Below, one piece after another: positions 25,744-26,883 of a DNA stretch of 33,738 nt. The position numbers were made by a program, and so were the translations under genes. This DNA comes from Candidatus Hestiella sp. (GTDB taxonomy: Archaea; Thermoproteota; Thermoprotei_A; Sulfolobales; Acidilobaceae): the NCBI GenBank assembly GCA_015522625.1, contig WALX01000110.1:1-33738 (forward strand). Direction: 5' to 3'. A model generated the notes under the pieces. It ran no database searches. It had not been told where the DNA came from and worked only from the letters and a program-made list of their open reading frames with translations. Position 1 is the stretch's first letter. Each line of letters begins with the position of its first letter.

Positions 25744-26103
25744 CGCTTAAGAAGGTAAATAAAGGACTAGTAACAGTTTCTTGGGTAAAGGTTTTTTATA
25801 GGTCTGCATAGTTTTTATTCTGAAGATGACCTGTGGAGCCTACTTCCTAGAGGCGAAGGAGGCTTGCCATTTGCTTCTCAAAGGTGTTTATAGCTTTAGT
25901 GTGGTTTGTAGTCATGATGAAACATAGAGAAGAGACGTAACTCATCCTAGCGAAGCCTATAATGATATAGGATGGGAAATGGATTAACCCTTATATCTCT
26001 CAGAAAGGGCTAAAAGCATAGGAGGCCAAACTGCCTGCGTGAAGGTGCCCCGTGTCCCGGGTTCATGTGTGCGCAGGAGGCCTCCCAGAAGAAGGTGAAA
26101 GCA
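25744..26103 (+). other. Gene-free stretch with GC-rich hairpin; ncRNA or TnpB relic
   Basis: A 360-base stretch without a supported gene. A TTTTTTATA box (about 25792-25800) could start a transcript. It then holds a stem CATCCTA/TAGGATG (25943-25949, 25968-25974) and a GC-rich nested hairpin: GGAGGCC/GGCCTCC (26021-26027, 26079-26085), CCTGCG/CGCAGG (26034-26039, 26072-26077), TGAA/TTCA (26040-26043, 26062-26065). The 65 bases from 26021 are about 68% G+C in AT-rich surroundings, typical of structured RNA in thermophiles. One frame there reads GGQTACVKVPRVPGSC, faintly like the TnpB end at 17960-18022 (VPR..G..C), so an IS right-end relic is the other reading. Confidence 0.5.
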
Positions 26104-26883
26104 ATGTTCATAGTACTAATAGGTACTGCAGGTTCTGGAAAAAGTACCCTGGCCTCCTATTTGAAGGCAACAATCGAGGCCTCGGGGAATGTAGTGGTGA
26201 ACCTAAACTTCGATCCTGCAGCCGAGTCCCTGCCCTATGAAGCAGACATAGACATTAGGGACTATATCAAGGTTGAAGATTTCATGGCCAGAGGTTATGG
26301 GCCAAACGGTTCAATGATAGCGGCCGTTGACTCAATAATAAACTATGCAAACAAAGTGAGGGAAGAAATCTATTCATACAGACCTGATTTCGTTATCATA
26401 GACACGCCCGGGCAGCTTGAGCTATTTGCCTATAGAATAGGCGGTCCAATAGTCCTAGAGTCAATAGTAGAAGATGAGAAGGCCGTTGTAGTCTTCCTCA
26501 TGGATTCGATATTTTTTGACAATCCAGCCGACATGGTTTCCATACTTACCCTCGCAAGCTCTGTCAATACTAGGCTCAAAAGGCCCCAAATAAATGTGAT
26601 AAGCAAGTCCGATCTAATAATTAGGGAAGTGCTTGAGAAAGTCATACCGATGATACATGAAGAAGGTTACCTAGAATCCATGCTCAGGGAGAGCAACGAT
26701 ATAGATCCACAGGTTCTAGGCCTGTCAATGAGCCTTGCCAGGGTTCTATATGAATCAGGATATTTCGGTGAGATAATCCCTGTTAGTGTCTATGATGAAA
26801 TCACTATTAAGAACCTTTACGGTAAAATACAGGAAATACTGAGCCAAGGAGAAGACAAGAAAATCTATGATACCTATGCATGA
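26104..26883 (+). CDS. GPN-loop GTPase
   Basis: 259 residues from ATG 26104 (AGGTGA about 6 bases upstream). Seen: the P-loop GTAGSGKST (7-15), the GPN insertion GYGPNGSMI (GPN at 66-68), DTPGQ (100-104) and the base-specific SKSDL. The archaeal/eukaryotic GPN family forms homodimers in which the GPN loop completes the partner's active site; eukaryotic members help assemble RNA polymerase II. The archaeal role is likely RNA polymerase or ribosome assembly but unproven. It stands alone after the structured region at 25.8-26.1 kb. Confidence 0.93.
   Translation: MFIVLIGTAGSGKSTLASYLKATIEASGNVVVNLNFDPAAESLPYEADIDIRDYIKVEDFMARGYGPNGSMIAAVDSIINYANKVREEIYSYRPDFVIIDTPGQLELFAYRIGGPIVLESIVEDEKAVVVFLMDSIFFDNPADMVSILTLASSVNTRLKRPQINVISKSDLIIREVLEKVIPMIHEEGYLESMLRESNDIDPQVLGLSMSLARVLYESGYFGEIIPVSVYDEITIKNLYGKIQEILSQGEDKKIYDTYA

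Follow-up and report, generated by a model that had tools for sequence, protein, structure and literature searches.

A predicted class-wide small RNA gene of the Sulfolobales and near relatives with candidate antisense arms against helices 68 and 69 of 23S rRNA

Results

A predicted small RNA gene ahead of a GPN-loop GTPase gene

The 33,738-nucleotide stretch of archaeal DNA analysed here (the window) contains a predicted stand-alone gene for a structured RNA, usually present in a single copy and distributed throughout the class (the order Sulfolobales and its near relatives). The RNA is probably transcribed from its own TATA promoter and probably acts in trans in ribosome biogenesis, and is best read from its sequence as a candidate H/ACA-like rRNA guide or chaperone for helices 68 and 69 (Table 1). 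The initial annotation had drawn attention to a 65-base segment of about 68% G+C in AT-rich DNA, and indeed no 65-mer of the window exceeds the G+C content of positions 26021-26085 (67.7%, against a window average of 41.6%), which is reached by 3 of 33,674 65-mers, all at the hairpin. Folding reproduced the nested stems of 7, 6 and 4 bp described there, namely an outer stem GGAGGCC/GGCCUCC, an inner stem CCUGCG(U)/(G)CGCAGG of 6 bp plus a U.G pair and a 4-bp apical stem, with a minimum free energy of -35 kcal/mol for 26005-26095. The folding energy of the hairpin alone was unexceptional (z -1.65; 15 of 200 shuffles equally good); the case for a hairpin RNA is founded on comparative covariation. 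Covariance models built stepwise matched the window at 26017-26089 (R1) and 26018-26086 (R2 and R3), and TATA-like hexamers clustered 40-50 nt ahead of the inner stem across 71 loci. ARAGORN detected no tRNA or tmRNA in the window. The Rfam search that had been suggested for this region gave no family at the gathering cut-off in the window with Rfam 15 and, once E-values were relaxed, still no match to the RNA, either in this part of the window or at nine relative loci, consistent with an RNA not listed there.

Table 1 Features of the predicted RNA gene, its surroundings and its second scaffold copies.
Feature	Position	Strand	Remarks
Non-autonomous IS607-type element, 217 bp	25766..25982	+	Separate from RNA gene
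TATA-like box of RNA gene, TTATATC	25991..25997	+	43 nt before inner stem; conserved in G002
Predicted small RNA gene, about 70-75 nt	26016..26090	+	Covariance model and same place in G001-G004
Outer stem 5' strand GGAGGCC	26021..26027	+	Position of the arm antisense to 23S helix 68 in other lineages
Inner stem 5' strand CCUGCGU	26034..26040	+	Covarying
Non-bulged (G-A) strand of kink-turn-like internal loop	26041..26042	+	A in 60 of the 62 sequences that have a letter in column 32
Apical stem-loop CCCCG-UGUCC-CGGGU	26048..26062	+	Loop consensus N-G-U
Kink-turn-like bulged strand GUGU	26067..26070	+	Consensus R-U-G-A/U/G; R-U-G invariant in 71 of 71
Inner stem 3' strand GCGCAGG	26071..26077	+	Covarying
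3' tail GGCCUCCC	26079..26086	+	Outer stem in Caldisphaera; homologous tail antisense to 23S helix 69 in most lineages
GPN-loop GTPase	26104..26883	+	Pfam ATP_bind_1, E 1.2e-52
Pyrodictiaceae second scaffold copy	L125 1571-1648; L255 1692-1759; L252 1023-1100

The RNA is conserved across the class, covaries and changes neighbours

The hairpin was found at the same place, upstream of the GPN-loop GTPase gene, in all four congeners (G001-G004), with the two strands of the outer stem changing in step (GGAGGCC/GGCCTCC, GGGGACC/GGTCCCC and GGGATC/GATCCC), and the RNA also precedes this gene in many other Acidilobaceae genomes. It was detected in 50 of 60 relatives with R1, in 163 of 214 genomes of the order Sulfolobales with R2 and in 176 of 229 genomes of the class with R3, the last including 109 of the 122 good genomes, mostly as a single copy. 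A phylum-wide search of a 398-genome sample returned one match among about 320 genomes outside the class, which doubles as a false-positive control. Searching with the hairpin at the DNA level outside the genus gave short chance matches and one region of genome G041, recognised as the paralogue described below, and a 19-mer pattern scan of named genomes also matched unrelated GC-rich bacteria, as expected at that length. We take G003 to be Caldisphaera lagunensis, G016 Aeropyrum pernix, G022 Acidilobus saccharovorans, G050 Ignicoccus hospitalis, G051 Pyrolobus fumarii and G203 Sulfolobus acidocaldarius. The predicted RNA gene is placed at 755448-755520 (+) in S. acidocaldarius DSM 639 and at 523961-524039 (-) in A. 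pernix K1.

The comparison for compensating base changes proposed in the initial annotation revealed strong stem covariation across the class. In the inner and apical stems 89-99% of cells were paired and double changes were frequent; double-change pairs numbered 21 against 14.7 in shuffles, and the covariation score was 0.350 against 0.171 for shuffled alignments and at most 0.108 for slid controls. Twenty loci used for neither R1 nor R2 showed like covariation, in an alignment made by the model itself. Pairing of the outer stem amounted to 64-66%, a count less reliable than those for the inner and apical stems because the initial alignment of the outer stem mixed two registers. Together with the class-wide distribution, the covariation backs the earlier reading as a stable ncRNA of a thermophile.

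In the window the hairpin ends shortly before the ribosome-binding site of the GPN gene, whose start is likely the ATG at 26104 (preceded by GGTGA) and not the start at 26065 chosen by the ORF caller, inside the hairpin; alignments of the GPN protein to most relatives begin at about residue 12-14. Outside the Acidilobaceae, and in part of that family too, the RNA adjoins other genes, e.g. an RHH/CopG gene, and this diversity of neighbours indicates a gene of its own. The RHH/CopG-like gene adjoins the RNA gene in four families (L266, L106, L097, L123), and in Sulfolobaceae the TATA-like box of the RNA lies inside its 3' end.

A non-autonomous IS607-type element ends upstream of the RNA gene

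The first ~200 bases of the interval 25790-26100 belong to a dispersed repeat. The same genome contains 12 further matches to it, partial or full and several of them at contig ends, and this repeat family stops before the hairpin. The segment 25766-25982 is composed of a left end, a tnpB tail and a right-end hairpin; its part 25870-25982 matches an IS607-type element at the right end and at the 3' end of tnpB. Both of its ends match an autonomous element on another contig, which encodes a serine recombinase (Pfam Resolvase and HTH) and a TnpB with a Cas12f1-like TNB domain, and the nearest relative, G002, has an empty site at this position with hairpin and promoter present; from these end matches and the empty site the segment is recognised as a non-autonomous IS607 derivative. 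An apparently autonomous IS607-type copy with a serine recombinase and a short TnpB lies at L328 (G000:C133:50500-52600). The element was inserted about 10 bp upstream of the TATA box of the RNA gene and ends 38 bp upstream of the hairpin. The TATA-like box formerly placed some 220 bases upstream exists (ggttttttatagg, about 25790-25803) but belongs to the element, and the 7-bp stem described in between (catccta...taggatg, about 25943-25975) is real but part of the mobile-element remnant. The alternative that the hairpin is the tail of a third TnpB (the KVPRVPGSC frame) was correct insofar as a tnpB tail is adjacent, at 25870-25982, but does not hold for the hairpin, which is conserved class-wide without TnpB.

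A kink-turn-like loop at a guide-like distance from the arms

In the internal loop the 3' strand carries an R-U-G that is invariant in 71 of 71 sequences, with a nearly invariant A opposite, the pattern that at sequence level marks a kink-turn's bulged strand. The second pair of the loop varies (G.A, G.U, A.A or A.G), extra nucleotides lie beside it, and some lineages depart from a strictly defined K-turn. Between the arms and this loop lie about 7-11 stacked pairs (the number varies with the lineage and with the counting of the closing wobble and G.A layers), in agreement with the 8-13 bp of H/ACA guides. An A-N-A was present at offsets of 13-17 nt, where an ACA/ANA box was looked for, in 5 of 71 RNAs against 17.4 expected from base content, and the alignments contained no conserved C (RUGAUGA) or D (CUGA) boxes near the ends.

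In most lineages both arms are complementary to neighbouring sites of 23S rRNA

Matches of both arms to 23S rRNA fall at one homologous place in species of several families. About 15 of 16 positions pair between the tail GGGUCACUCCCGGCCU and AGGCCGGGAGUAACUC, a segment made up of the 5' strand of helix 69 and its loop as far as C1916 (E. coli numbering, assigned by eye). The 5' arm, of which UGAACCCCGGU is an example, is complementary to ACCGGGGUUCA in helix 68 (up to 11 of 11 bp), about 20 nt upstream of the helix 69 site. For the tails of at least 11 of 26 RNAs, the helix 69 place ranked first or second among about 3,000 positions of 23S rRNA; for the 5' arm, the homologous place ranked first to third in about 9 of 26. 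In A. pernix, Pyrodictium, Ignicoccus, Staphylothermus and others the tail duplex runs through C1916 and stops short of U1917, ending just before a uridine as in H/ACA guides; this feature is weak in Caldisphaera, the genus of the window. Immediately 3' of the candidate target uridine, pairing seen by inspection was limited to GGU with A1919-C-Y (3 bp); the long complement of the 5' arm is in helix 68, upstream of the tail site, which is the reverse of the order in H/ACA guides.

Arm and rRNA letters change together between species, GGGAGU occurring with ACUCCC and GGGGGU with ACCCCC, and likewise GUUCA/GAAC, GUACA/GUAC, GUCCA/GGAC and CCAGGG/CCCUGG. When arms and rRNAs were swapped between species, ignoring phylogeny, 3 of 20,000 swaps paired as well as the own-species combinations for the 5' arm and 6 of 20,000 for the tail (G090 being offset by an indel). 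Predictions written before further 23S genes were fetched, in a test that drew on the 5 of 30 genomes with a usable 23S gene, were borne out in 4 of 4 cases for helix 69; for helix 68 two were exact and two were kept by G.U pairs.

Duplex energies in A. pernix, Pyrodictium and AG1 ranged from -28 to -32 kcal/mol for the tail and were about -21 kcal/mol for the 5' arm. Complementarity to rRNA is weak in Caldisphaera, Acidilobus and Sulfolobaceae, with duplexes of -10 to -17 kcal/mol in Caldisphaera and Sulfolobaceae; the tail of the window gave -10.3 kcal/mol with the 23S rRNA of G002, no 23S gene having been found in the window's own assembly. In Caldisphaera, the window's genus, the arms pair with each other in a 7-bp stem. 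They appear to have drifted to this state, so that a function of the RNA in this genus would rest on homology.

Paralogues and neighbouring RNAs

Pyrodictiaceae harbour a second copy of the scaffold whose tail AGGCUCCACCCCU is perfectly antisense (13 of 13 nt) to AGGGGUGGAGCCU of 16S rRNA; the L125 and L255 copies sit in a ribosomal-protein operon, between the L23 and L22 genes. Reuse of one scaffold with varied antisense arms is the pattern expected of a family of guides.

A second RNA type was also observed in Ignisphaera relatives (L257 1521-1592, L256 1641-1716, L258 1649-1717), with the tail GGACCCCCC and a possible 23S match, UGACUAGGGGGUCCU. An Acidilobus sp. (G030) has two RNA copies 3.2 kb apart with differing tails (L110 1431-1504 and 4696-4765). 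In Sulfolobaceae (L266-L279) a conserved C/D-box-like motif, ATGATGTAGCAGGGACGTACTGA, lies 30-60 nt downstream of the RNA and perhaps marks an adjoining C/D sRNA.

Discussion

The central intersubunit bridge is formed by helix 69, which carries uridines that are modified universally. We propose that the RNA is a guide or chaperone directed at this region, given its H/ACA-like layout and a tail that stops before U1917, together with the lack of an ACA box and a reversed 5' arm. With no ACA box and a 5' arm pairing upstream, it cannot be filed as an H/ACA RNA. In the proposed mechanism, L7Ae would bind the kink-turn-like loop, the two arms would clamp helices 68 and 69 of pre-23S rRNA, and the RNP would either position Cbf5 on U1917, just beyond the 3' duplex, or chaperone the folding of the two helices. 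Base modification and chaperoning seem about equally likely roles for such an RNP.

An RNA acting as a chaperone only, its arms holding helices 68 and 69 apart or together in 50S assembly without modification, is a serious contender, if short of probable. The length of the antisense arms (11 and about 16 bp), the closeness of their sites (about 20 nt), the non-H/ACA order and the missing ACA box all suit it, and chaperone roles have been proposed for archaeal sRNPs (PMC3608112); against it stand the exact stop of the 3' duplex before U1917 and the match of the scaffold, whose kink-turn-like loop is 7-11 bp away from the arms, to H/ACA-like guides. The tail GGGUCACYCCC resembles, by inspection, GGAUCACCUCC, which we take to be the well-known 16S 3' end, and could thus belong to an sRNA that regulates translation by Shine-Dalgarno pairing, the rRNA match being a by-product. 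This is improbable, as the tail extends well past the 16S-like part and tracks helix 69 changes between species, and the idea of an anti-Shine-Dalgarno tail fails in Sulfolobaceae and Caldisphaera, which lack UCACC.

A cis-acting leader or riboswitch of the GTPase gene would also suit the position of the RNA, which in many Acidilobaceae precedes GPN and in the window ends shortly before the ribosome-binding site; the initial annotation had considered a long regulatory leader. That reading is now very improbable and largely refuted by the differing positions across families: the RNA precedes GPN in only part of one family, lies elsewhere (e.g. by the RHH/CopG gene) in other families and even within the same one, and usually occurs once per genome with its own TATA signal. 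An omega RNA or TnpB-element tail, suggested by the IS607-type remnant ending 38 bp upstream, is hardly credible, the hairpin lying outside the genomic repeat, accompanying its promoter at the empty site of G002 and being conserved class-wide without TnpB.

Extending the guide-or-chaperone reading, we suggest tentatively, as a somewhat unlikely scenario, that this class-wide family of kink-turn hairpin RNAs, which have neither ACA nor C/D boxes, may form a third kind of archaeal guide or chaperone RNP directed at rRNA. Their two long antisense arms would clamp helices 68 and 69 of pre-23S rRNA and keep the intersubunit bridge blocked until the end of assembly; paralogues would serve other rRNA sites, e.g. 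the 16S site in Pyrodictiaceae. An RNA that is usually single-copy, occurs in almost every good genome of the class, covaries with helices 68 and 69 and is absent from Rfam constitutes a concrete candidate for a helix-69 guide. In the open literature searched, no such guide was found described for this archaeal class; an earlier description in a subscription journal is possible. In Sulfolobus acidocaldarius, where the candidate would be testable, sRNA libraries list unassigned L7Ae-bound RNAs (PMC5539422).

In haloarchaea, Psi1915 and Psi1917 of helix 69 have been attributed to Cbf5 with an sRNA (PMC2584109). With canonical archaeal H/ACA sRNAs the new RNA would share the target region, a 3' guide stopping just before U1917 and, in Caldisphaera copies, a 7-bp lower stem, but it lacks the ACA box and the regular two-sided pocket. 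Archaeal box C/D sRNAs have been proposed as double-guide rRNA chaperones (PMC3608112), and they resemble the new RNA in having two antisense elements that contact nearby rRNA segments and a kink-turn-like motif; unlike them, it has no C and D boxes and carries a rigid hairpin between its arms. The H/ACA-like sRNAs sR203-sR210 of Pyrobaculum consist of a kink-turn hairpin with free arms (PMC4652768). The new RNA differs from these in lacking an ANA/NCA box, in its much longer arms, in a 5' arm that pairs upstream and not downstream of the tail site, and in forming one class-wide family absent from Rfam. It resembles them in being a single hairpin of Thermoproteota, without a lower stem in most lineages, with a kink-turn-like element 7-11 layers above single-stranded arms that would pair with rRNA.
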